The position numbers and the translations under genes were made by a program. Shown here piece by piece: positions 2,997-53,882 of a stretch of DNA of 64,000 bases (positions are counted from its first letter, which is position 1; each line of letters starts with the position of its first letter). Location: the IMG/VR virus record IMGVR_UViG_3300031746_000004, positions 41,285-105,284 of that record; one strand, 5' to 3'. The notes under the pieces are model-generated. The model ran no database searches. It was not told where the DNA came from and was given only the letters and a program-made list of their open reading frames with translations. The DNA comes from a virus.

Positions 2997-4724
2997 ATGG
3001 CTATACAAGAACAAACATTATATCAATTAAGTACTAATACTTGGAAAAAAATTTATGAAACTACTTTAACAGATGCAGCAACAAGTGTAACTATATCTTC
3101 TTTAGATGGAAATACTGATGAAGAATATATTTTAATTTGTCGTTTTATTGACGACGATACCACAGGTGGTTATTATCTTCGTTTTAATAACGATAGCGGA
3201 AATAATTATGGATATCAATATATAAAAGGTTCATCTTCTACTGCTTCTGCTTTAAGAGATACTTCAGAAGCTCAAATAGATTTAGGTTATACTAATACAG
3301 ATGGTAATATTTGTTTTTCTAAACATTTAATTCATGCTAAAAGTGGTTATGTAAGAACAGTAATAAGTGAATCAGCAGAAGATATAGCAACAACTACTGT
3401 AACAAATATAAAATCAATAGGTCAAGTATGGAATAATACAGCCGATAATATAACATCAATAGTTATTGGTGCTTTAAATGATAAATTAAATATAGGTAGT
3501 AGAATTATTTTATTAAAAAAAGCAAGTATAACTGGTTCTGGTTCTGGAATAAAAAATATTATAGCAGGAACTAAAAAAGGAAGTTGGGAAAGAATTTATT
3601 CTACTACTTTAACAGACGCAGATGCTTATACCAAACTCTTACTTCATTGCGATGAATCTACTCTCTATGACGTAACTGGTAAAACAGTTACTTTAGTAGG
3701 TACAGCAGCAATGAGTACAGCTCAAAAGAAATTTGGTATAGGTAGTTGTTTATTAGATGGTGATAGTGATTGTTTAACTTTAGCAGATTCAGACGATTGG
3801 TATTTCGGAACAGATAATTTTACTATAGATTTTTGGGTTAGATTTATAAGTGTAGCAGGAGACCAAGTCCCTATTGCTCAATGGTGGGATTTTGCTGGTG
3901 ATTTGAGTTTTAGAGTCATATTTGAATCGGGGGCATTACATTTTTATTATTCGACAGACGGTACGATAATAAAAGATGTTAGCTTTGGAGCTTTTTCTGT
4001 CGCAATAAATACGTGGTATCATATAGCTATAGTAAGAGATACAGTTAACCTTAAAGTATATGTTAATGGAGTACAAATAGGTTCGACTTATAATATAAGT
4101 ACTGACCCTTTATATAACTCATCCAGAGTTTTATCAATTGGGGCTAGATATGGTTCTTCTGTAGTACAGTTTTTAAACGGTTACTTAGACGAAATAAGAA
4201 TTAGCAAAGGTATAGCACGATGGACTGCTAACTTTACTCCTCCAACAGAACCCTATACAAGTAAATTAACTTCTCTTTCAATAAATAATTTAGATGGTAA
4301 TACAGATATTTTATATAGATTAAGATGTAGATTAATAAATGGTTATAATGGTGCAGCAAGTTATTATTTAAGACCTAATAACGACTCAGATTCAGATTAT
4401 GGTTATCAAGAGGTTGATGGAACTGATTCTACTGCATCAGCAGTAAGAGATACATCAGAAGCACAAATGCACTTAGGTTATGCTGCTGCTCAAAATAATT
4501 TATCTATATCAGAGACTATTTTTTATGTAAAATCTGGTTATTTAAGAACAGCACTAACCCAATTAATAAAAACAATAACAGGAACTACCTGTACTTCTAC
4601 GAATTTAAAAGGTCAAGTTTATCAAGATACAGCAACAAATATAACTTCATTAGTTATTCTTGCAGACCAAGCAAATGGTTTGGGAGTAGGAGTTGTTATA
4701 GAATTAGAAAGATTAAATTTATAA
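2997..4724 (+). CDS. Virion protein with a duplicated domain and an inserted LamG (concanavalin-like) domain
   Basis: The 575-residue protein begins with a beta domain (about 15-175) marked by WKKIYETTLTDA, SLDGNTDEEY, NNDSGNNYGYQ, STASALRDTSEAQ and a TSIVI ending. A second copy starts at 197 (WERIYSTTLTDA), is interrupted by a LamG domain (211-422: DNFTIDFWVRF, NTWYHIAIVRD, VYVNGVQIG, GYLDEIRISKGIARW), then resumes at 424 (LSINNLDGNTD) and runs to the end. LamG folds bind glycans. A close LamG cassette opens the protein at 26180. It is probably a tail fibre or surface adhesin; the receptor is unknown. Confidence 0.8.
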   Translation: MAIQEQTLYQLSTNTWKKIYETTLTDAATSVTISSLDGNTDEEYILICRFIDDDTTGGYYLRFNNDSGNNYGYQYIKGSSSTASALRDTSEAQIDLGYTNTDGNICFSKHLIHAKSGYVRTVISESAEDIATTTVTNIKSIGQVWNNTADNITSIVIGALNDKLNIGSRIILLKKASITGSGSGIKNIIAGTKKGSWERIYSTTLTDADAYTKLLLHCDESTLYDVTGKTVTLVGTAAMSTAQKKFGIGSCLLDGDSDCLTLADSDDWYFGTDNFTIDFWVRFISVAGDQVPIAQWWDFAGDLSFRVIFESGALHFYYSTDGTIIKDVSFGAFSVAINTWYHIAIVRDTVNLKVYVNGVQIGSTYNISTDPLYNSSRVLSIGARYGSSVVQFLNGYLDEIRISKGIARWTANFTPPTEPYTSKLTSLSINNLDGNTDILYRLRCRLINGYNGAASYYLRPNNDSDSDYGYQEVDGTDSTASAVRDTSEAQMHLGYAAAQNNLSISETIFYVKSGYLRTALTQLIKTITGTTCTSTNLKGQVYQDTATNITSLVILADQANGLGVGVVIELERLNL

Positions 4725-4745
4725 TTTATAAAAAGGAGATAATAG

Positions 4746-5039
4746 ATGAAATCAAATAATTGTAATTGTAATTGTGAATTTGAAGAAATTAAAAATAATG
4801 TTGAAGATTCTACTGCTAAAGGTTATGTTTTAGTTTCTGAATGTAACGATTGTAAAACTAAAAGAGAAGCAAATGCAATCGAATCTGCTAAACAAAATCG
4901 TAAACAAGAAATTATAAATGAACTTAATGAATTAGATAAGAAAGTAATTCGACCTCTTTTAGATGGCGAAATAATAAGAGTTAACGAAATAAAAGCACAA
5001 AAAGTAGTATTAAGAGAAGAATTAAATCTCTTAGGATAG
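4746..5039 (+). CDS. Small Cys-rich/helical phage protein
   Basis: The 97-residue product has an Asn/Cys-rich start (CNCNC), a CNDC pair and a helical C-terminal half (QEIINELNELDKKVIRPLL, then VLREELNLLG). Short proteins with this kind of helical tail often lie beside fibre genes in phages. I cannot name a family. It follows an AAGGAG site and lies between the LamG protein and the portal. Confidence 0.65.
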   Translation: MKSNNCNCNCEFEEIKNNVEDSTAKGYVLVSECNDCKTKREANAIESAKQNRKQEIINELNELDKKVIRPLLDGEIIRVNEIKAQKVVLREELNLLG

Positions 5040-31531: not shown

Positions 31532-33196
31532 TTATTCACGTTCTAACGATTCTTTGATAAAATTTAATACGAAATAAATGACTTCTTTAATTTCTCGAAA
31601 GTTTGTAGTTGAAGAAAATAATCTAAATTCTATAGTCTGATAATCTTCTTTAGGTAGATGTGAAATATTTAAAGAATAATATTTTTCGTCAATGTAGCTA
31701 TAATGTCTAAAATTAGTTCTTAGATTATTTCTAAAATTATGTAATTCTTTTTCTGTAAGTTTATGCAGCTCACTCTTTGGTAATAGTTTACATGTATTAG
31801 CAATGCGTTCTTTAGAAATATTAAACCTTTTAGCAATATATTTTTGTTTATGTATCCATTCTTTTATAATAGTTATAATTTGTTTATCTGTTAAATTTTT
31901 AATATTACAATTATGAACAATTAAACCATTAGCAATGTAGGTATTTGTCCCAGTTTCAAAATTATATACTCTTACTTTTTTTCCTTTTTTGTAAGTAATT
32001 CTTGATATATCTTTACAACCCCAATACTTTAAAGGTTTATATTTTAGTTTATTGGGATGTGTTTGAGCATAAAAATCTATAGCGGGCATTATTCTTAGTT
32101 CATAGAATTTTCTATTAGATATTTGAGTTTTTCTAATTCTTAATTTAAACGAAATATTTAATTCGTTACAATATTGTTTAATTTTATTTATTTTTTTTAA
32201 GTTTGTATTGCATAAAATTATTTCATTAGATGTTTGTGTTCCTTCTGCATCAAAAAAACCTGCCAAATATCCGAGTTTATAAAATGTGCTATTTCTAAGA
32301 TGAGAATTTCTTAAAAAATTATATACATCCTTTCCTCCTACACATGAATAAAAATAATTTTTATTATCTTGATGTATTGACATATTTCTTTTCAATCCAA
32401 CTTTGTTAAAACATATATTAATAAAATTCAACAAATTTTTATCTTTACAATGAAAAGTTATTTTTGAATTTTTGTTATGTTTTGCATTGATAATATGTCC
32501 GTCGCCAGATATATATCCATCTAACCATCCTCGATGCCACGATTTGTCTCTATAATTTTCATCCTGTCTATTGTTATTGAATGTTATATATTTTGTTTGT
32601 TTTATATGTTCGGCAGGATAGAAATAATTAATTCTTCTATTATTTACAGGCGTTTGAGCTAAATATTTAATAATGGGATGTTCTGGAGTTACAGATACTA
32701 AAAATTTATTATTATAATATAAATCGATTGTATCTGCATTTCGACAATATTTTTTGCTTATTTTAGTAGAAATAAATTCTCCAGAAATTAAATTCAATCC
32801 CAAAATATTGTCCCCTATTTTAATTCGTTCAATAGATTTTGAGGTGTAATCAGGTAACATAATTTTAGTTCCCCATTTAAAGCAATGAATATGTAAACCA
32901 CAAGTAGGTTTTGCTTTTCCTCTATAAACACGTACTAAAGCTAATATTTCTTTTATTTGAAGAAAAGAATCTTCATTATAATATAGATGATTAGAATTTT
33001 CAGGAGAAAGTTCAATTCCATTATTCAAAGACCCATCGTTTTTTATCTCCCAACCCTTTAAGGTTTTACCACGTTCAATAAGTCTATCAGATTCTGTTTT
33101 AGCTGGTAATTCGAATTCAAATTCAGGAGCAAATCTGATTTTCTTAATATCTATAAGTTTAATTTTGTCTTCTTTTTTATTTATTGACTTAACCAT
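31532..33196 (-). CDS. Amidoligase-family protein (COOH-NH2 ligase) interrupted by an intein
   Basis: The host protein (residues 1-104 plus 430-554) fits the Amidoligase_2 family of glutamine-synthetase fold. It has FAPEFEFELP, LKGWEIKNDGSLNNGIELSP, CGLHIH and, after the intein, TIEFRLFSSTTNFREI with the metal-binding E and the R of the second half. These enzymes make ATP-dependent amide bonds between peptides, amines or cell-wall precursors. The intein sits exactly after the HxH motif (CGLHIH then CNIKN). It is followed by an unknown gene at 31128. Substrate and role in infection are unknown. Confidence 0.78.
   Translation of the reverse strand: MVKSINKKEDKIKLIDIKKIRFAPEFEFELPAKTESDRLIERGKTLKGWEIKNDGSLNNGIELSPENSNHLYYNEDSFLQIKEILALVRVYRGKAKPTCGLHIHCFKWGTKIMLPDYTSKSIERIKIGDNILGLNLISGEFISTKISKKYCRNADTIDLYYNNKFLVSVTPEHPIIKYLAQTPVNNRRINYFYPAEHIKQTKYITFNNNRQDENYRDKSWHRGWLDGYISGDGHIINAKHNKNSKITFHCKDKNLLNFINICFNKVGLKRNMSIHQDNKNYFYSCVGGKDVYNFLRNSHLRNSTFYKLGYLAGFFDAEGTQTSNEIILCNTNLKKINKIKQYCNELNISFKLRIRKTQISNRKFYELRIMPAIDFYAQTHPNKLKYKPLKYWGCKDISRITYKKGKKVRVYNFETGTNTYIANGLIVHNCNIKNLTDKQIITIIKEWIHKQKYIAKRFNISKERIANTCKLLPKSELHKLTEKELHNFRNNLRTNFRHYSYIDEKYYSLNISHLPKEDYQTIEFRLFSSTTNFREIKEVIYFVLNFIKESLERE
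31910..32884 (-). mobile_element. Intein with LAGLIDADG homing endonuclease (in amidoligase)
   Basis: This 325-residue in-frame insert begins with Cys (CFKWGTKIMLPDYTSKSIE) and ends LIVHN before Cys+1, the standard intein borders. The block-B region has NADTIDLYYNN and LVSVTPEHPII. Two DOD motifs, LDGYISGDGHI and LAGFFDAEGTQ, mark a homing endonuclease. Splicing should restore an uninterrupted CGLHIH-CNIKN sequence. All key residues look intact. Confidence 0.88.
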
Positions 33197-33894: not shown

Positions 33895-34503
33895 CTATTT
33901 TTTAGGATAAAGTATTTTATCTACTATTCCATACTTTAAAGCATCTTCGGGGAACAACCAAAGTTGTCCATTTTTAATTTGTGTTAATTGTCTTTGATTT
34001 AATTTAGTATGTTTTTTTAACATTTCATTCATTCTTTTTTCTAATCTAAATAAAAAACCAGCTTGGTCTTTAATATTTTGTACATTACCTTGTAAAAGGT
34101 CAGAAGTACTATGTTGCATCCAAAATCCATTAGGAGTAATAAATCTTTTTTTACACACTATACTTATCATTGCTGCCATTGAGCAGGCTTCTCCTGAAAT
34201 GATAGAATAAACAGGAGCATCTATGGCTTGTATTGTATCTATTATAGATAATCCATAAGTTACCCATCCGCCTGGACTGTTTATTTCCAAATTAATAGGT
34301 ATAGTTTTATCTAGATAATTCATAGCTCTTATTTTAGAACAAATAATATCTGCACTAATATTATTAATTTCGTCGTAGAGAAGAATATATCTATTTTTAT
34401 TTAAAATTTTATAATAAAATTCTTCAGAGTATTTATCTTTTTTATCCATCTTCAAATCTTCTTTTATTTCTTCGTCGTCGTTATCCCGATAGATTTTATT
34501 CAT
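33895..34503 (-). CDS. ClpP-like serine protease (paralogue 1)
   Basis: The 202-residue protein has the ClpP fold pattern: INSPGGWVTYGLSIIDTI, the nucleophile Ser108 in SGEACSMAA, and His131 in FWMQHST. At the place of the catalytic Asp (R-D-x-F in bacterial ClpP) it has NGQLWLFPEDA, with Gln180, so the triad may be incomplete or supplied differently. The N-terminal 25 residues are charged and form no clear signal. A second ClpP-like gene lies 2 kb away. Phage ClpP-like proteins can serve in head maturation or host proteolysis. Confidence 0.82.
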   Translation of the reverse strand: MNKIYRDNDDEEIKEDLKMDKKDKYSEEFYYKILNKNRYILLYDEINNISADIICSKIRAMNYLDKTIPINLEINSPGGWVTYGLSIIDTIQAIDAPVYSIISGEACSMAAMISIVCKKRFITPNGFWMQHSTSDLLQGNVQNIKDQAGFLFRLEKRMNEMLKKHTKLNQRQLTQIKNGQLWLFPEDALKYGIVDKILYPKK

Positions 34504-35602
34504 TTATTCCTCCTATTTTTAATTTATTAATTAAAGGCAAGCATAAAAAAGATGTAATCGCACTAATACATATTAATATTTTTAATCCTACTAAAGGCAG
34601 TAATAACGCACCGCTAAAACTAGATGCAGTTCCTGCACTTAAATTATTTATTCCGCAAAGTAAAGCAAATGTAGTTGCTTCCAATCCATCAATTGAAGAT
34701 TTAGCCATCCAATCCATAACAATAAGAAAAATAAACATACCTATAATACTATAAAAGAAGGTGTAAATTATTGCACTTATCGGTGTAAAATAAAGATAAG
34801 ATAAAGTTGTAATTGCACCTAACCAGACAGAAATATGTAACCATTTTTTTATGTTGATTTTTTGACTTAATTTCCAATAAAATAATGCTCCTAAAATAGA
34901 AACTCCAGAAGCAACTGCTTCTAAAACTCCCATAAATTGAAAAGACCATTTAAATTTATCTCGCATAATGTAGGAAAGAGGAGTTCCAAACGAAGGAGAA
35001 TACTTATAAAGAAATAAAAATAAACATCCCCATAAAAAGGATTTATTTTTAAAAATTTGTTTATAAGATTTAAGTTTATCTAATAATTTAATTTTATTTA
35101 TTTTATAAAATCGAGGGCAATCATCATAATAAGGCATTTCGCAAGTTTTATAGAGTTTGCAATTTTTGCAATAGGTTTTTCCTGTTCCTTTTTCTTCTTC
35201 TTTATAAAAATAAAGTGGTATAAACATTAATAAATAAAAAGGTATAATTAATAAAAATCCTATTTTATAATTAAAATGGTCTGCTAAATAACCACCTAAA
35301 AGTCCTGTAATTACTGTTGCTATTGTAATAAAAATCCATTGTATACTTTGTATTTTACCTGTAATATTATATTTTTTTCCTTCTATACACATAGTTCCGT
35401 CAACTGCTACATCTCTAATTGCAGCGTTAGTAGAATTAATAAACATCATTGTTATTAGCATAACTAAAGGCAAAGACCATAAACCTAAGATTAATACAAT
35501 AAGAATATCTATTATTATAGATATTGTTATCCAGATTTTTCTTGATAGAAATTTCTTAGTAAAACAAATATCTATATCATAATTAAATAAATTAATAATC
35601 AT
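34496..35602 (-). CDS. MFS/BT1-like transporter, C-terminal fragment
   Basis: This 368-residue integral membrane protein has about ten membrane segments. It matches the later part of BT1 (folate-biopterin) or related MFS transporters: STNAAIRDVAVDGTM, ITGKIQSIQWIFITIATVIT, GGYLADHF. A Cys cluster (CKNCKLYKTCEMPYYDDC) sits in the central loop. The missing first segments are encoded at 36332-36586, beyond the HNH gene, so the transporter appears split. Its start lies within the end of the HNH gene. Substrate and activity of the split form are unknown. Confidence 0.7.
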   Translation of the reverse strand: MIINLFNYDIDICFTKKFLSRKIWITISIIIDILIVLILGLWSLPLVMLITMMFINSTNAAIRDVAVDGTMCIEGKKYNITGKIQSIQWIFITIATVITGLLGGYLADHFNYKIGFLLIIPFYLLMFIPLYFYKEEEKGTGKTYCKNCKLYKTCEMPYYDDCPRFYKINKIKLLDKLKSYKQIFKNKSFLWGCLFLFLYKYSPSFGTPLSYIMRDKFKWSFQFMGVLEAVASGVSILGALFYWKLSQKINIKKWLHISVWLGAITTLSYLYFTPISAIIYTFFYSIIGMFIFLIVMDWMAKSSIDGLEATTFALLCGINNLSAGTASSFSGALLLPLVGLKILICISAITSFLCLPLINKLKIGGINE

Positions 35603-36342
35603 TGATTACCTCTCATATATCTGAAGTAAGCATACCAGTAATCTCGATTTGAGTTTGCTTTTAAATTGCATTTTAAACAAAGAGTTATTAAATTATTTTC
35701 TTTACAATTGTATTTATTATAATCTATATGATGTATACCTAGTTTTCTTTTTATTTGCGTTAATTCTTGTTCTTGAGATTTGTTACAGTTTTGACACTTA
35801 TAATTATCTCTATCTCTAATATATTCTTTCAAATTTTCATTAAATTCTAGAGGATAGGGAAGATTTCCAAGTCCATGTTTGTAATTAGGATTATTTTTAT
35901 CTTTATATAGTATTGATTTGAACATATAACTACATTTCATACATCTTGTATTTTGATAAGAAATTCGTTTGCCACAATCAAAACATTTTTTGTTTTCTAA
36001 AGTTCTTCCATCTTTATAAGCTGGATTGTTTTTACCTTTGAATAGTATTTTCATTCGTATAGAATAACATTTTTTGCATCTTATTGTTTTATAATGATGA
36101 ATTTCCTTATTACAATCAATACAATAATGTTTTTTTAAACTTATTCCCTCTTTATAATTCGGATGATTTTTAGGATTTTTTAATCTTTTTTTCATAAGTT
36201 TAGAAATTAATTTTTTAAATTTAATAGATTTATGTTTATTTTTTATATATTTATTTACTATAAATCTATTACGACAAATAATACATCTTTTAGAATATTT
36301 TGAAATTTTGATTCCACAATCTATACAAAAGTTATTTTTCAT
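35599..36342 (-). CDS. HNH homing endonuclease splitting the transporter gene
   Basis: Three zinc modules (FCIDCGIKI, YCIDCNKEI, KCFDCGKRI, each with a second CxxC) and linkers NHPNYKEG, NNPAYKDGR and NNPNYKHG lead into an HNH core (CQNCNKSQ, GIHHIDYNKYNCKENNL, CLKCNLKANSNRDYW). It begins inside the end of the transporter N-terminal ORF and ends in codons AGA GGT AAT CAA with an AGAGG site for the transporter C-terminal ORF, whose ATG overlaps the stop. There is no room for a group I intron around it. Confidence 0.88.
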   Translation of the reverse strand: MKNNFCIDCGIKISKYSKRCIICRNRFIVNKYIKNKHKSIKFKKLISKLMKKRLKNPKNHPNYKEGISLKKHYCIDCNKEIHHYKTIRCKKCYSIRMKILFKGKNNPAYKDGRTLENKKCFDCGKRISYQNTRCMKCSYMFKSILYKDKNNPNYKHGLGNLPYPLEFNENLKEYIRDRDNYKCQNCNKSQEQELTQIKRKLGIHHIDYNKYNCKENNLITLCLKCNLKANSNRDYWYAYFRYMRGNQ

Positions 36343-36586
36343 GCTTTTTTATAGTAATTTTTAATATAGGAAACCCCAAATCTATCATAATTCCCCACAA
36401 AATTTTGGGAATCCACGCTAACCCTACAATAGAATTTATCATCATTATCTTTTCGGGAGAATATAACAATACTTCTTTAAAGTATTTAAAAATAGATAAG
36501 GACGGCAAAGATGAAAATCCTTGCAAATAATAACAAATAGCCGACAAGGTATAAATCCAAAAAATTTTAGAAGTTTTTTTATTCAT
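36332..36586 (-). CDS. MFS/BT1-like transporter, N-terminal fragment
   Basis: This 84-residue ORF has two membrane segments and reads like the start of a BT1 transporter: YYLQGFSSLPSLSIFKYFKE, then VGLAWIPKILWGIMID, corresponding to the typical QG..L...LKD...LPW.IKP..G..SD pattern. It ends in a basic tail and a stop inside the HNH gene. The remainder of the transporter is encoded at 34496-35602. The two parts may assemble as a split transporter or be inactive. Confidence 0.68.
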   Translation of the reverse strand: MNKKTSKIFWIYTLSAICYYLQGFSSLPSLSIFKYFKEVLLYSPEKIMMINSIVGLAWIPKILWGIMIDLGFPILKITIKKHEK

Positions 36587-37152
36587 TATAATATTTTATC
36601 TATTATTCCTCTTAATAAACATTCTTCAGGAGATAACCATAATTCTCCATTACGTAAAGTTTGCAATTCTTGTTCCGAAAGTTTAGTATAAATTTTTAAA
36701 TGATTTTCAATCATTTGCCATTCTTTTTTAATAAATTCTGCTCTAAATTCTACCTTACCAGAATAATCTTCGCTAATTCCTCCCCGCATATCATGACCCA
36801 TCCAAAAGGTATTTTTAGTCATATAACGTTGTTTTCCTATAATAGAGATTAATCCTGCCATTGAGCAGGCTTCTCCGTAAATAATAGTATATACAGAACT
36901 TTTTATTAATTTAATAGTATTAATTAAAGAAAATCCATCGCAAACAGTTCCACCTGGACTGTTTATATATAAACGAATAGGTTTATGACTAAGTGCATCC
37001 AAAACAAAAATATCTTTTACTATTTTAGAAATATTTTCTGATTTAACATCTCCTACTAAAAATAAAGCACGATGTTTTAATAAAATATCATCTACTTCTA
37101 ATTTTTTATTTATATCTAATTTTTGAGGAACTATAGGTTTTTTATTTTTCAT
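36586..37152 (-). CDS. ClpP-like serine protease (paralogue 2)
   Basis: The 188-residue ClpP-fold protein has YINSPGGTVCDGFSLINTIK, nucleophile Ser98 in YGEACSMAG and His120 in FWMGHDMRGG. The usual catalytic Asp position reads RNGELWLSPEEC with Glu170. The GEACSMA core and the LRNG-x-LWL segment are shared with paralogue 1, so they are duplicates or partners. It is translated from a GGAG site provided by the tiny HNH remnant upstream. Confidence 0.82.
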   Translation of the reverse strand: MKNKKPIVPQKLDINKKLEVDDILLKHRALFLVGDVKSENISKIVKDIFVLDALSHKPIRLYINSPGGTVCDGFSLINTIKLIKSSVYTIIYGEACSMAGLISIIGKQRYMTKNTFWMGHDMRGGISEDYSGKVEFRAEFIKKEWQMIENHLKIYTKLSEQELQTLRNGELWLSPEECLLRGIIDKIL

Positions 37153-37161
37153 TTTATTCTC

Positions 37162-37242
37162 CTATTTTAATTTTAAATTACATTTTTTACAAGAAGTGAT
37201 TAAATTGGTTTTTCTACAATCTATACAGTAATATTTTTTCAT
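37162..37242 (-). pseudogene. 26-codon remnant of a zinc-module HNH homing gene
   Basis: ATG at 37242 overlaps the previous stop (ATGA). The mini-ORF starts KKYYCIDCRK, the first zinc module, and jumps directly to NLITSCKKCNLK, the last HNH segment, so nearly everything between has been deleted. It ends TAG GAG AATAAAATG, giving ClpP paralogue 2 its ribosome binding site. Start, stop and 3' signal are intact, but no nuclease can be made. Confidence 0.8.
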
Positions 37243-37766
37243 ATTTGAATAATTAAGATAGATAGAAGGACAATTAATCCCCAAACTATAGTTTCGACCC
37301 AATTTAGTGTTTTACCAAATAATTTATAACTTCCAAAATTTCTCCAACTCATTAAAGCATTTATCATACAAATACCTAAACTACATAAGATGTATACTAA
37401 CCAATTTTTCTTTAAAATAGGAATTGAAATCAAAGATAGGGCAATTAACACTCCTATCGTTCCTCTCGTAAATACATTAGCTAAACTTTCATTATGATTG
37501 AATAAGTTATAAAAGAAAGCACCCAATTTACTTCCTTTATCATCTTCACAAGGAATTCCATAACCCATAGAAATAGGTATTGACATTAATATTATAGTTA
37601 TAATTAATAAACTTTCTGTAGAAGAATAAGCTAAAGAAGTAATTAATCCAGGAATTAATATTCTTCTATATAATTTAGAAGAATTATCGGCTCCTCCCAA
37701 TGCTCCTAAGAAACCACCCAATAAAGGTAAAGCACAAGTTATTATTTTATTTATTATTTTTTTCAT
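37239..37766 (-). CDS. Integral membrane protein of unknown family
   Basis: The 175-residue protein has about five membrane segments and a cytoplasmic or loop motif GGADNSSKLYRRILIPGLIT near its N-terminus, followed by MGYGIPCEDDKGSKLGAFF. The conserved-looking polar motifs suggest a specific function, but I cannot name it. It lies between the M50 protease and ClpP genes and is coupled to the first by an ATGA overlap. Confidence 0.62.
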   Translation of the reverse strand: MKKIINKIITCALPLLGGFLGALGGADNSSKLYRRILIPGLITSLAYSSTESLLIITIILMSIPISMGYGIPCEDDKGSKLGAFFYNLFNHNESLANVFTRGTIGVLIALSLISIPILKKNWLVYILCSLGICMINALMSWRNFGSYKLFGKTLNWVETIVWGLIVLLSILIIQI

Positions 37767-38371: not shown

Positions 38372-38533
38372 CTAGTTCTCCATTAAATATCTAAAATAAG
38401 CAAACCAATAATCACGATTTATGTTTACTTTCAAATTGCATCCACGACAACTAGTAATTAAATTATCTTCTTTATTATTTTGTTTATTATAATTAATATG
38501 ATGTACTGTTTTATTTCTTTTAAATTTATTCAT
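38372..38533 (-). pseudogene. Remnant of an HNH homing gene (53 codons)
   Basis: The mini-ORF starts one base after the deformylase stop and encodes only the second half of an HNH domain: VHHINYNKQNNKEDNLITSC, RGCNLKVNINRDYWFAYF and YLMEN. The first CxxC of the finger and all N-terminal modules are gone. Its last codons ATG GAG AAC TAG give the site for the M50 gene, whose ATG follows directly. It matches the C-terminus of the intact gene at 44364. Confidence 0.8.
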
Positions 38534-38534
38534 T

Positions 38535-39179
38535 TTATTTGCGATAATTAACATCTCTATATCGGCGGTCGAATAAGACGATTCCTGATTGATGGTCGCA
38601 CTCATGTTGTATTGCAAGTGCTTCTAAATCTTGTGAACAAGAAGTAAGTTCTTTAAAATTCTCATCTAAATATGTAATAGTAATATAGGTATATCTTTTT
38701 GTTGTTACGGAAATTCCAGGAAAACTTAAACATTGCTCATTTTGTACTTTTAAAGGTGTTGATTTTTCTATTATTTTAGCATTGATTAAAATATATTCGT
38801 TAAATTGCATTTCTTTATTTTTATTTATAAATTTAGGTATTTTTATATAAGAAATTGCTTTACTATATCCTATTTGATTTGCAGTTAATCCTAATCCACC
38901 TATTCGATTTAAAGTTTCTTTTAAATCTTTAATAATTTCTTTAACGTCTTCCTTTTTTTCTACTTGCAAACAAGGTTTACGTAATTCGTTTATATCGGTA
39001 ATTATCTGCCTTCCTTTGGAGATTTCTTCCTTATCAAAAATAGGTTTATAATTTTTATCTAGCATAGATTTTAATGCTTCTCTTTCAGAAAGAGTAAGAT
39101 AACCTTTTTCCATTCTTATTTTTTGCTCTAAAATATAAGTATCAAATTCTAAGGGGTTTCTAAATAAAGTTTTAAGCAT
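38535..39179 (-). CDS. Peptide deformylase-like protein
   Basis: All three deformylase motifs are present: GGLGLTANQIG (residues 94-104), EQCLSFPG (148-155, with Gln in place of the usual Gly) and QHECDHQSG (191-199, metal-binding HExxH). The protein is 214 residues with an extra N-terminal segment of about 60 residues. It removes formyl from N-terminal Met of new proteins. Phage deformylases are known in cyanophages and vibriophages. Confidence 0.85.
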   Translation of the reverse strand: MLKTLFRNPLEFDTYILEQKIRMEKGYLTLSEREALKSMLDKNYKPIFDKEEISKGRQIITDINELRKPCLQVEKKEDVKEIIKDLKETLNRIGGLGLTANQIGYSKAISYIKIPKFINKNKEMQFNEYILINAKIIEKSTPLKVQNEQCLSFPGISVTTKRYTYITITYLDENFKELTSCSQDLEALAIQHECDHQSGIVLFDRRYRDVNYRK

Positions 39180-40680: not shown

Positions 40681-40870
40681 TTTTCTTTTTATAAGTAGGA
40701 AATATACTGGGGAATTTTTTTCGTGCTATTCTCAATGCGATTAATCCCTGACATTTATGAATAGCTTCTGCAAATTCTTCTTTTTCAGAAGGATGTTGTT
40801 CTTCCAATTTAACAAAAGAATTATATGATTTAGTTAAATAATCCAATACTTGTTTTTCTAATTTAGTCAA
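40673..40870 (-). CDS. Small helical protein with TTG start
   Basis: This 65-residue charged helical protein (TKLEKQVLDYLTKSYNSFVK, KCQGLIALRIARKKF) starts at a TTG in the end of the endonuclease gene upstream. An AAAGGAG sequence in that gene's codons lies nine bases before it. No ATG is available at the right place. The function is unknown. Confidence 0.6.
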   Translation of the reverse strand: MTKLEKQVLDYLTKSYNSFVKLEEQHPSEKEEFAEAIHKCQGLIALRIARKKFPSIFPTYKKKNE

Positions 40871-41528
40871 CTTTACTTACTCCCTTTTCTCTAATTACAA
40901 TAAATTGTTTTATTCCTTCTAAATAATTAATATCAATTATTACTTTAAGAATAACATTTGGAAATAATTTTTTGAATAATTTGTATTTTTTCCTAGCATC
41001 ATCTCTCCAATATCCTTTGATTTCAATATAAATATTACTTTTTGGAAGATAAAAGTCTGGAGTATAAGTAGTATCTTTCAAATCAAATTCTTTGGGTTCA
41101 TAAATGTATTCAATATTATGTCTATCTAACCATTTGGCAAACTTAATTTCCCAACTACTTCTCATCCAAATGTGATTATAATAACCTCCTAAATAACTAT
41201 TATTTTTAGATTGACATCCTTTTCCAAAATTTGGATTTGCCCTTCCCTTTAATTTATGATTGTCATAATTGGGATTTTCTTTACCTTTCATAGTTTTTAA
41301 ATAACAACTTTTACATTGTTTAGCATAAAAACTCATTTTATTACCACATTTACAATAAAACTTTCTACCATGCTTGTATAAAGGATTTAACTTTCCTTTT
41401 TTACCAAACATAGGATTGTGTTTACCTTTATTAGCACAAGACATACATCTAACAGAATAACAAGTTATTCTTCTATGGCATTTTATACAATAATTCTTTT
41501 TTAATGTAATTCCGTTTTTATAATTCAT
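40863..41528 (-). CDS. Zinc-module homing endonuclease with PD-(D/E)XK-like nuclease
   Basis: N-terminal modules (YCIKCHRRI, RCMSC, FYCKCGNKM, CKSC) and linkers NPMFGKKG, NPLYKHGR, NPNYDNHK and NPNFGKG precede a different nuclease core: SSWEIKFAKWLDRHNIEYIY, TYTPDFYLPKS and IYIEIKGYWRDDARKKY. That gives E, PD and ExK in PD-(D/E)XK order. The same DNA-binding modules are therefore joined to an unrelated catalytic fold. It overlaps the gp46-like stop (ATGA), and its end supplies the site and TTG start of the next gene. Confidence 0.82.
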   Translation of the reverse strand: MNYKNGITLKKNYCIKCHRRITCYSVRCMSCANKGKHNPMFGKKGKLNPLYKHGRKFYCKCGNKMSFYAKQCKSCYLKTMKGKENPNYDNHKLKGRANPNFGKGCQSKNNSYLGGYYNHIWMRSSWEIKFAKWLDRHNIEYIYEPKEFDLKDTTYTPDFYLPKSNIYIEIKGYWRDDARKKYKLFKKLFPNVILKVIIDINYLEGIKQFIVIREKGVSKVD

Positions 41529-43380: not shown

Positions 43381-44367
43381 TTATTCTATCTCTTTCTGTA
43401 GAATTTCCATAATTTTGAGGTCTATTTTTTGATTATTTAAATAATTCCTAAAACTTTCTTTAAAATTTACTATTTCGGTACGTATACTTTTTTCGGTACT
43501 ATCCGAAATAACTTCAAAGTCTGTTTCGTACTTAAATGTCGCAAATTTTGTATCATAATTACGACATAAAGGAAGAAATTCTCTAAAACTAGTGAAATCT
43601 AAGATTTTCACTTTAACCTTTGTTTTTGGGTCTAATTTGTCTAAAGTAGGTATAAGTTCGGATAGGGTCATTCTTATGTTCGAATTTAATGGCTTTTCTC
43701 CTTCGAAATTAGACGATTTAGGTTCTGAAGTGGTATTTAGAGAGTCTAAAACATCATTTTTATATAACTCAAATTGTTTCATAGGGATAGGAGTTTTAAG
43801 AGGTATGAAATCAACCTTTTCTTGAGAAGTATTATAATTAGTAATCAAAGCCACTAATTTATATTTATCTTTGGCTTCATCAAAATTAACAAAACGACAA
43901 CTTCCTAAATGTATTATATTAGGGTCAAAGGAATGTAAATGTCCCAAAAAAATAAGCAAATAATAATTTTTTAAATCTTTTATAGATATTTTAGCACCAT
44001 AATTTTTAGAAGATTCTTTTACAGAAAAATGTCCACAATAAAGATGATTTCCGTCTCTTATTTCTTTTACTATTTCTATATTATGATTAAGAATTCCATA
44101 ATGATTTAGGATTGATTCTTCTTGTGTGGTACTCTCATGACTATCAGCAGCGATTATAGTAATAGGTCGATTTAAATCTCTAATAAATTTTGCAAATAAA
44201 TCTAATTCCAAACTTGATGGTTTCAAACAATCAAAATTATCACCCAATGAAATAATATTCGTAACAGAATATTTGTTACATAATTCGATTATTTCCCGAA
44301 GAATCAAATTACATTCTTTAAGAGAACTCTGATTAATATGTAAATCTCCAAAAATTAAATAAGTCAT
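43381..44367 (-). CDS. Mre11/SbcD-like nuclease (T4 gp47-like)
   Basis: The 328-residue metallophosphoesterase has YLIFGDLHIN, ISLGDNFDC, AADSHESTT (in place of the usual GNHD) , YCGHFSV and FLGHLHSFD. The order matches Mre11-type nucleases. A helical C-terminal part may bind the gp46-like ATPase. Its ATG overlaps the HNH gene upstream, whose codons ATG GAG AAT provide the ribosome site. Confidence 0.86.
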   Translation of the reverse strand: MTYLIFGDLHINQSSLKECNLILREIIELCNKYSVTNIISLGDNFDCLKPSSLELDLFAKFIRDLNRPITIIAADSHESTTQEESILNHYGILNHNIEIVKEIRDGNHLYCGHFSVKESSKNYGAKISIKDLKNYYLLIFLGHLHSFDPNIIHLGSCRFVNFDEAKDKYKLVALITNYNTSQEKVDFIPLKTPIPMKQFELYKNDVLDSLNTTSEPKSSNFEGEKPLNSNIRMTLSELIPTLDKLDPKTKVKVKILDFTSFREFLPLCRNYDTKFATFKYETDFEVISDSTEKSIRTEIVNFKESFRNYLNNQKIDLKIMEILQKEIE

Positions 44368-50866: not shown

Positions 50867-51104
50867 TTAAAGCTATAATTATTAATATCCTTAAAAATGT
50901 AATAATAATTAAACCTATTCCTATACCTATAATATTAGCTAACATATCTAACCAATCAAAACCTGTTCCATAAAAACGGTCATATATTTCTTTAAAAAAT
51001 CCTAATAATAACGTTAATAATACTCCTAATGTTATACCTAAAAATAATCCTAATAAAATCATTAATGTTAAAGATACATAAAAATGCAATAATTTATCTT
51101 CCAT
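50862..51104 (-). CDS. Small membrane protein, VanZ/DUF2279-like pattern
   Basis: The 80-residue protein starts DKLLHFYVSLTLMILLG and contains GFFKEIYDRFYGTGFDWLDM, then a Gly-rich last membrane helix (LANIIGIGIGLIIITFLRI). The DK-LH, KE-YD and DWLD-LAN motifs match small bacterial membrane proteins of VanZ or DUF2279 type. It starts on the last base of the terminase stop. A terminase-tail relic follows it. Confidence 0.6.
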   Translation of the reverse strand: MEDKLLHFYVSLTLMILLGLFLGITLGVLLTLLLGFFKEIYDRFYGTGFDWLDMLANIIGIGIGLIIITFLRILIIIALI

Positions 51105-53698
51105 TAAATTTCTCCAAAATAACCCAAACCTGGTTTTTTTCTTGTTATAGGTTTAATTTCTTCCATTTCTTTTAAAAAATGAGTAATAGCAAATACTTGA
51201 AATGCTTGAAATAAATGATTTGCTCCTTTACAACTATATAATATTTTTCCTTGTTTACTTCTTACTACTATAATATTATTTATTTGAGTATCTAATTTAA
51301 TATCTTCATAACATTGTATTTTCTTATTATAAAAAATATCCTTTAAACATTGAATAGACCAATCTACAACGTTTGCTTTTTTCATAACAGGATGTCCTTC
51401 TTTATCTCTTATTTCTTTACCTTTATCATCTCTTTCAAAATCTATTTCTATATTAGAATTAAAATCTATAGGGATGATATTTTCTGGGTATTTTTTAATT
51501 AAATGACTATATAAAGATTTCCCTACACCACTAGAATGGTCTAATCCTACAATATTAGGTTGTAAAATTTCTATTAAATATTCTATAAAATCCTTTTCTT
51601 CATCTGGAGATAATTGAAAAGTAGTAATTCTATAAATATATTTATAAATTTTATTTGTTTTAGAAACGATAATATATTCCGAAGGTGCTCCGCCTTCTCC
51701 TACGTCGAAATAAATTCCTAAACTTTCCGCATTATTTGGTTTTTCTATAATAATAATTTCTTTGTATCTAAAATAACTATCTTTATTTATTTCAAATGAT
51801 TTTATAGGAATACCCATACCCTGCTTATCTAAAATATAAGTTTGTCTAATTCGTTGAATATCAAATACACTTTCTGCTCCTTCGATGACTTTTCCATCTA
51901 TTTGAACTTGATATCCGATAGAATCCTTTCCTCCAAATTCCTTTATAGCATCTGTTTCTTTTTTATCATTCCAAGTCGGATTCACATAAGAAGGAAGATT
52001 AACTATTTTCTTTTTATTTTCTAAATTAAAAAATATTTCTCCCATTGGAGATGTTTTTGTAAAAGTTGTCATACCGCTATTATGAACAATAAATCCATTA
52101 GCTATAAATGAATGACATTTAGTTTCTATATCATATACTTGTTGATTTTCTAAATATCCTTTACATTTTATCTGTTCTTTATTAAATATTGGTCTACGAA
52201 TATTAAGAATAGTTTTCCTATATCTTAATCCTTTTTTACAAGGCATTTCGTAAAAAGGTAACTCATATTTGTTAATCGAAAACTGCACAGATTTATTAGA
52301 TTCTCTATAATTTTTACAATATTTTAGTTTTAATATATTTAAAATAGATTCTATTTTTTCAACTTTATTCCTATTAGTTTTATTTGATTGGGTAATCATC
52401 ATGGAACCATCATTTCCCAAATATCCATCTCCAATAATAAATCCAATTAAAAAACCATACATACTATCTTTCAATATTTCTAATTCTTTATATGCTTGTA
52501 ACATTATATAATTGCTATTTCTATTAATATTAAATCTATATGGAGTTTTTTTGTTCCAACCATGTTTTTTTTGTTCTATTTTAGTATACATTATATTCAA
52601 TTTTTGTAATAACCATTCAATAAAATCAACTTCATCTGATTGATGTATTATAAATTGATGTAAGATTTCTTCTTTTCCTTTTAATATATAATGAGAACCA
52701 TCACTTTCTATTAAACCTATTAACACCCCTCTTAAATAATAATCTATATTATGCAGATAATTAATACTTTTCATAAAATATTTATATCTCATACATCCAT
52801 AGGCTTCTCGCCATTTATAAACTTTATCTCCTTCACTCAAACACCGAATTTTATGTTCGGGAGTTAACCACAGTTCATTTCGACTATCATCTATTTTAAT
52901 AACATCTCGTATTCCAGAATCAAATAAATTTAGTACTTCAGTTTCTATTAGAGAATTTTGTTTTTCATCCCAAGCAATAATTAAATCGTTTTGTTGTATA
53001 TCTTCTATATTTTTGGTAGAAAAATCAAACATTAATATTTTAGTTCCTTCTCTAATACAAAAACGATTTATACATCCTTTTTCAGATTGAGCCATTAACA
53101 TTTTTCCAGAAACATCTTTAGTAAGATAACTAGATTCTTCCATATATTGTCTATCATAATGTTTACCGAAATATTGTCCACCTGGATTTTTACCTGTAAT
53201 ATTTTGATTAACACTTTCTAATAAAAGTCCACTATCAAAATTTAATTTATAGGTGGGACTCCGTAAGGGATGACAATTTAAAAATTTCATTATTTTATGA
53301 TTCTCAAAACAATTAATTAATTTTTCAAAGATTTCTAATAAATGTAGTTTATCATAAGAAGAAATAACAGCCCATTTATAAACTTGATTAAAAGTACAAA
53401 CTAAAACATCTATTGTAATAGCAATAATAGATTTGCCTGTAAGACGACCTCCTAATGCATAACTTTCTGCTAGATTATTTTTTACTTCCCAATTCTTTTC
53501 TTTAGATAATTTTTTATCTTCTAAAAATAAAGAATCATAACTCAACATAGGATATTGATATAATCTTATAAACCCAAATTTATTCTTATCAAAAACTCCT
53601 AGAGAATCAAAATCGTGAAATAAAATCTGAGATGCACTTATTGGATGAGTCATTACTTCAAAAAATATTAAATCTTCTTGTTTAATTTTTAGTATCAT
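51104..53698 (-). CDS. Terminase large subunit interrupted by an intein
   Basis: The start is the ATG at 53698, ten bases after GGAG; upstream codons in frame overlap an HNH remnant. The ATPase domain has SYALGGRLTGKSII (Walker A) and RQYMEESSYLTKDV (Walker B region); the nuclease domain has IYFDVGEGGAPSEY and NIVGLDHSSGVGKS. The two extein parts meet at GCINRF and SGMTTFTKTSPMG. The enzyme packages and cuts DNA at the portal. It lies on the opposite strand to the portal, about 45 kb away. Confidence 0.88.
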   Translation of the reverse strand: MILKIKQEDLIFFEVMTHPISASQILFHDFDSLGVFDKNKFGFIRLYQYPMLSYDSLFLEDKKLSKEKNWEVKNNLAESYALGGRLTGKSIIAITIDVLVCTFNQVYKWAVISSYDKLHLLEIFEKLINCFENHKIMKFLNCHPLRSPTYKLNFDSGLLLESVNQNITGKNPGGQYFGKHYDRQYMEESSYLTKDVSGKMLMAQSEKGCINRFCIREGTKILMFDFSTKNIEDIQQNDLIIAWDEKQNSLIETEVLNLFDSGIRDVIKIDDSRNELWLTPEHKIRCLSEGDKVYKWREAYGCMRYKYFMKSINYLHNIDYYLRGVLIGLIESDGSHYILKGKEEILHQFIIHQSDEVDFIEWLLQKLNIMYTKIEQKKHGWNKKTPYRFNINRNSNYIMLQAYKELEILKDSMYGFLIGFIIGDGYLGNDGSMMITQSNKTNRNKVEKIESILNILKLKYCKNYRESNKSVQFSINKYELPFYEMPCKKGLRYRKTILNIRRPIFNKEQIKCKGYLENQQVYDIETKCHSFIANGFIVHNSGMTTFTKTSPMGEIFFNLENKKKIVNLPSYVNPTWNDKKETDAIKEFGGKDSIGYQVQIDGKVIEGAESVFDIQRIRQTYILDKQGMGIPIKSFEINKDSYFRYKEIIIIEKPNNAESLGIYFDVGEGGAPSEYIIVSKTNKIYKYIYRITTFQLSPDEEKDFIEYLIEILQPNIVGLDHSSGVGKSLYSHLIKKYPENIIPIDFNSNIEIDFERDDKGKEIRDKEGHPVMKKANVVDWSIQCLKDIFYNKKIQCYEDIKLDTQINNIIVVRSKQGKILYSCKGANHLFQAFQVFAITHFLKEMEEIKPITRKKPGLGYFGEI
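52079..53059 (-). mobile_element. Intein with LAGLIDADG homing endonuclease (in terminase)
   Basis: The 327-residue in-frame insert begins CIREGTKILMFDFSTKNIED and ends CHSFIANGFIVHN before Ser+1. Block B reads DDSRNELWLTPEHKI. The two DOD motifs are LIGLIESDGSHY and LIGFIIGDGYLG. Splicing would join Phe and Ser of a conserved terminase segment just after the ATPase site. No damage to key residues is visible. Confidence 0.88.
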
Positions 53699-53702
53699 AA
53701 AT

Positions 53703-53882
53703 CTAATTCTCCAAAAAATATTTAAAATACACAAACCAATAATCTCTATTATAATTAACTTTTGAATTACAACTATTACAAACTGTAATTAAATTATTTT
53801 CGTTACAATTTTGTTTATCATAATCGATGTGATGAATTAATATTCTTTTTTCTTGTTTAGTTAGATTTTTATTGGTAATCAT
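53703..53882 (-). pseudogene. Remnant of an HNH homing gene (59 codons)
   Basis: ATG at 53882 overlaps the previous stop (ATGA). The mini-ORF keeps the second half of the HNH core (ILIHHIDYDKQNCNENNL, CNSCNSKVNYNRDYWFVYF) and the YFLEN end but lacks the first CxxC and all zinc modules. Its final codons TTG GAG AAT TAG carry GGAG for the terminase. Thus terminase translation appears to depend on this leftover. Confidence 0.8.

Follow-up and report, generated by a model that had tools for sequence, protein, structure and literature searches.

A BT1-type transporter gene apparently divided by an HNH homing-endonuclease gene in a tailed phage

How did a membrane transporter gene come to lie in two pieces in a phage genome, with another gene filling the space between them, and can the two pieces still make one transporter? 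The window, i.e., the whole stretch of 64,000 nucleotides that was analysed, comprises bases 41285-105284 of a 105,284-base virus record, is AT-rich and encodes tape-measure and baseplate-type proteins, and it therefore belongs to a tailed phage. The genes of the locus are all on the minus strand and, in translation order, they are a ClpP-like protease gene (36586-37152), a short ORF of 84 aa immediately after it (36332-36586), an HNH homing-endonuclease gene of 247 aa (35599-36342), a long ORF of 368 aa (34496-35602) and, last, a second ClpP-like protease gene (33895-34503). The two ClpP-like proteases bordering the split transporter are different proteins, and an M50 peptidase and a peptide deformylase are encoded nearby. 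As the earlier note on this DNA had described, the HNH ORF fills the gap and overlaps both neighbours, by 11 nt (ATGAAAAATAA) with the short ORF and by 4 nt (ATGA) with the long ORF. Our best explanation, to which we give a probability of about 0.75 as a whole, is that a host-derived transporter gene was invaded by an HNH gene, and that its pieces would be translated separately, spread by homing and assemble as two chains. The insertion and the split of the transporter, taken alone, are nearly certain.

The BT1/MFS-type identity proposed earlier was borne out, since the two ORFs match consecutive parts of one profile. The short ORF covers positions 1-53 of the 432 positions of BT1 (PF03092) with an E-value of 0.005, which alone is below the Pfam cut-off, and the long ORF covers positions 58-408 (E 5.5e-17, 62.1 bits against a cut-off of 22). 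The unsplit homologue scored 74.7 bits (E 8e-21) against the same cut-off of 22, and a profile score above the gathering cut-off places the protein in the BT1 family of the major facilitator superfamily. The resemblance to the known BT1, folate/biopterin and AmpG transporters lies in the near full-length profile coverage, whereas the subfamily scores are far under the NCBIfam cut-offs, both for the folate/biopterin transporters (TIGR00788, 52.6 bits against 216.4) and likewise for AmpG (TIGR00901); because of these scores the substrate was left unassigned. The search among solved structures gave no useful sequence relative, and the AlphaFold models reached a pLDDT of 38 and 40 from shallow alignments of only 3 and 4 rows. 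Alignments also revealed a Cys-rich extra loop, GKTYCKNCKLYKTCEMPYYDDCPRFYK, between TM6 and TM7 (segment 35087-35200, minus strand), which is missing in all 22 of 22 homologues; this segment is possibly a metal site.

Unsplit homologues, which the earlier note had suggested looking for in related phages or hosts, were found in both, namely in three phage lineages and in dozens of Omnitrophota genomes, and they confirm that the HNH gene divides a transporter. The phage forms have 398 aa in L003 (a contig of the sister genome G002, which outside variable islands mostly shares 96-99% identity with the window), 390 aa in L002 (genome G001) and 392 aa in the third lineage, L050/L051. Residues 5-69 of the short ORF align with residues 7-71 of the unsplit L003 protein at 72% identity, and residues 14-368 of the long ORF with its residues 69-398 at 82%; both pieces align likewise, in order, to the unsplit L002 protein. 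An automatic search for neighbouring gene pairs that match one gene elsewhere recovered the transporter pair against both G001 and G002. Chance is excluded as the source of the two-piece match because both ORFs align, in order, to one unsplit protein, which is also one of the marks of 'genes in pieces'. The junctions of the unsplit proteins in L003, L002 and the L050 set read WGFFID-QFLSRK, WGFFID-QFMSRK and WGYCID-QFLSRK, while in the window 825 bp separate WGIMID from KFLSRK. When aligned with L003 and L002, this 825-bp insert falls at 35555-36379 (minus strand), L050 giving a third unsplit junction, and the empty site in L003 has the DNA sequence GACCAATTTTTGTCCAG. The insert directly follows Asp69 (GAT), the aspartate of the loop 2-3 motif, and ends ahead of the codon that precedes FLSRK; this motif, GxxxD, is typical of MFS proteins. 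Residues 1-69 of the short ORF are homologous to the unsplit transporters and its last 15 residues, 70-84 (LGFPILKITIKKHEK), derive from the insert, as do residues 1-16 of the long ORF. The two foreign tails had no above-chance match in the phage DNA examined.

The insert is embedded in a sharply bounded tract of about 2 kb, from about 37100 to about 35050, in which the identity between the window and L003 drops to 64-88% in the alignable parts, as compared to 99-100% on either side. The divergent flanks extend about 700 bp upstream and 500 bp downstream of the insert, and the insert is absent from L003, L002 and L050. Such a divergent tract is what co-conversion of flanks during homing leaves behind (PMC2988022), and both marks of a mobile homing endonuclease, presence or absence at a conserved site and co-converted flanks, were found here. 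We propose that a free-standing HNH gene, whose family has expanded in this lineage of phages, invaded a host-derived BT1/MFS transporter gene, and that repair triggered by the HNH protein would spread the split allele and co-convert its flanks. Recombination for reasons other than homing is a possible source of the same tract. The recipient, as far as the sequences indicate, may have been the window phage or L003, in either direction; L003 was the sole relative found of the neighbouring clpP gene, by which the recombination might have been polarised. Within the same tract, L003 carries a homing-endonuclease remnant (4535-4819) just upstream of its unsplit transporter gene and overlapping the start codon, and L050 carries an HNH-like fragment (3775-4017) in the same position, also overlapping the start codon. 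The 5' end of the transporter gene has therefore been invaded repeatedly.

The insert supplies the long ORF with both a start codon and a strong Shine-Dalgarno sequence. The 3' end of the HNH gene reads GAGAGG (35609-35614, minus strand, within the final HNH codons), 6 nt and then the ATG of the long ORF, and the HNH stop overlaps this start as ATGA. The duplex, computed with an assumed canonical 16S tail, has an energy of -10.2 kcal/mol. Of the 113 phage genes, 91% have a weaker one, and compared with background ATGs it ranks in the top 1%. No Shine-Dalgarno sequence precedes the start of the HNH gene (-0.1), whose translation probably relies on ribosomes re-initiating where it overlaps the short ORF by 11 nt. 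On a polycistronic message, the N-terminal piece would thus be made first, the HNH protein next by coupled re-initiation and the C-terminal piece last, from the Shine-Dalgarno sequence inside the HNH 3' end.

Whether the pieces still work together was addressed by sequence conservation. Neither piece contains a stop or a frameshift. With 22 unsplit homologues as reference, the two pieces together keep 42 of the 43 invariant residues of TM1-6 (14/15 in TM1-2 and 28/28 in TM3-6), the unsplit phage proteins being no better, and so decay is not apparent; in TM7-12 the window protein barely differs from that of L003, which makes this part uninformative for constraint. Compared with L003, pN was 0.17 and pS 0.60 in TM1-2, and pN was 0.085 and pS 0.68 in TM3-6, but most of the purifying selection measured may predate the insertion, as a single contig has yielded the split allele. 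Expression in fragments is tolerated by members of the MFS, LacY being one example. In the mechanism we propose, the TM1-2 and TM3-12 chains would assemble in the membrane into one transporter, like the split NrdA of phage Aeh1.

The strongest competing explanation is that the insertion was recent and inactivating, the transporter being dispensable and its pieces a pseudogene too young to have acquired stops. This would agree with the single contig in which the split allele was seen and with the foreign tails of 15 and 16 residues that were added in a conserved loop. On the other hand, the retention of the invariant residues in both pieces and a C-piece Shine-Dalgarno sequence among the strongest of the phage speak against it and, if it was the window phage that received the tract, another lineage had the split allele beforehand. 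From these comparisons, in which much of the divergence may be older than the insertion, a working two-chain transporter appears somewhat favoured and recent inactivation rather unlikely. We suggest, more tentatively, an obligate two-chain MFS transporter joined across the most conserved cytoplasmic motif of the superfamily, with its C-terminal chain made from a Shine-Dalgarno sequence borne by the HNH gene. If this is true, the HNH genes of this lineage can do little harm to the genes they enter, since translation restarts at their 3' ends.

The intervening gene is of the homing-endonuclease type expected for genes in pieces, as judged from Pfam and the HNH families of PHROGs. The HNH domain at residues 183-230 matched Pfam PF01844 with a score of 17.1, under the cut-off of 21.4, and PHROG HNH families with E-values down to 4.6e-10. 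The protein is composed of zinc-ribbon repeats followed by the C-terminal HNH domain. The HNH domain encoded at 35599-36342 also matched the NCBIfam IscB model (E 1e-7), far under its cut-off and over the HNH part only. At least 12 relatives of this gene, intact or decayed, are present in this phage, and the sister phage has a similar number; those in both phages and in unrelated contigs are free-standing, lying between genes. Most of the relatives in this phage are packed against the start of the next gene, and many carry GGAG or AGGA, resembling a Shine-Dalgarno sequence, in their last codons, with the stop abutting or overlapping the next start. Two decayed genes of the family lie at 37162-37302 and 38372-38617; the latter ends directly at the start of the M50 peptidase gene, and one of the two keeps only the first and last motifs.

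The free-standing habit of these relatives also bears on the idea that the HNH gene resides in a self-splicing group I (or II) intron and that a single protein is made from the spliced mRNA. The ends of the insert do fit the group I rules (the 5' exon ends in U and the insert ends in G), and its exact removal would restore the frame. However, the HNH coding sequence occupies 741 of the 825 nt, and the remaining 38 and 46 nt are too short for an intron core. The conserved catalytic core of a group I intron was not found: Rfam gave no match at the gathering threshold over the window, nor at E-values up to 10 over the locus, and the insert folded no better than its shuffles (z-score 0.36). We consider an intron very improbable.

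An equally improbable explanation is an assembly chimera from mixed strains. The contig is metagenomic, and the tract ends in strain-identical stretches where assemblers can switch, but a switch at the tract edges would not make an insertion because the divergent allele is present on both flanks of the insert, and the insert junctions lie in unique, non-repeated sequence. Moreover, an analogous split was found in the separately assembled sister phage. This second split gene is at G002 85606-87099 (L040 5606-7099), and its unsplit form is window 43381-44367, which looks metallophosphoesterase-like from its sequence and had no Pfam or PHROG match. The dividing HNH-like gene (85983-86543) belongs to another family than that of the transporter and falls between an N-terminal domain and a C-terminal part, the latter starting inside the HNH 3' end after GGGAGAA. 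Gene fission by HNH-type genes has therefore occurred at least twice in two sister phages, with different HNH families. Least credible is the idea that the short ORF has nothing to do with the long one and encodes a small membrane protein in its own right, as its Pfam score under the cut-off might suggest. Over 65 residues it is 72% identical to the N-terminal part of the unsplit phage transporter, the two ORFs are in order and adjacent, and a search found no homologue of the short ORF standing alone (such lone homologues were the outcome that the earlier note had set against its own proposal). This reading is refuted by the unsplit homologues.

Other mobile elements were observed in these genomes. 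Window 40863-41528 and G002 82660-83349 hold different homing-endonuclease genes at the same site beside an SMC-like gene, one a Phage_endo_I/Vsr-like nuclease and the other an HNH nuclease; their last codons (IREKGxSKxD) are almost alike, as an exchange of the nuclease part would leave them. An amidoligase-like gene at 31532-33196 contains a LAGLIDADG intein, and an 876-aa ORF at 51104-53734 has a LAGLIDADG intein signature.

The transporter gene also points to the probable host. In a collection of 84,980 species, at least 22 cellular relatives were confirmed, all of them Candidatus Omnitrophota among the matches listed, with identities of 50-63%; they were found by a contig profile search with a three-row alignment, a two-row alignment having given none. 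A homologue was present, one per genome, in 56 of the 237 Omnitrophota genomes sampled, and in one of them it appeared as two partial matches on different contigs, the rest being contiguous. Short N-termini of some host genes were considered as splits and rejected, as they reflect the start-codon rule of the ORF finder and the frame is open throughout. The upstream neighbour is secG-like in 8 of the 10 host loci examined and a marC-type gene lies downstream in several, both families being confirmed by Pfam in the examples tested. The four phage transporter proteins form one clade with a support of 100/100. From the Omnitrophota-only relatives listed and the single phage clade, the transporter gene most likely derives from a host, having been acquired from Omnitrophota long ago, and the hosts of these phages probably belong to that phylum. 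The rarity of such a transporter in phages, stated by the earlier note, stood in part: 50,697 named phage records contained no credible relative, yet PHROGs holds a matching family, phrog_2034, annotated as of unknown function.

To our knowledge, the phage genes split by homing endonucleases encode soluble enzymes of nucleotide metabolism and replication, and we know of no earlier HNH-split multi-pass membrane transporter; a non-exhaustive literature search likewise found no report of a polytopic transporter split in a conserved cytoplasmic loop. The process itself is already known, and what is new is the target class, a transporter that spans the membrane many times and is cut within the conserved loop 2-3 motif of the MFS. 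The host gene, the unsplit phage gene and the split phage gene offer a natural three-way comparison, which bears on how selfish genes survive inside genes and on how far transporters tolerate two-chain synthesis, and the probably host-derived gene connects Omnitrophota, an uncultured phylum, with a group of phages of ~100 kb. Among known systems, ICP1-type phages have genes interrupted by an intron and an intein (PMC10448857). In the wasp Campsomeris, the mitochondrial cox2 gene is split by an insertion with a putative nuclease gene (PMC5374615), similarly a membrane-protein gene, but there the 3-kb insert has multiple ORFs, the transcripts are separate and the protein is not a polytopic transporter. 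Homing endonucleases are also tied to two other split phage genes (PMC2988022): mobA to the topoisomerase gene 60 of T4 and, possibly, seg43 to the DNA polymerase gene 43 of Aeromonas phage 25, where the order of events is unclear. The closest parallel, already drawn in the earlier note, is mobE in nrdA of Aeromonas phage Aeh1 (Friedrich et al. 2007, reviewed in PMC2988022), and it holds: in both cases an HNH gene lies in a conserved, functionally critical region, two polypeptides result and phage relatives are unsplit. The Aeh1 protein is a soluble enzyme whose split form was shown to be active, whereas the present one is a predicted 12-helix transporter known from sequence, and its HNH protein differs in architecture.
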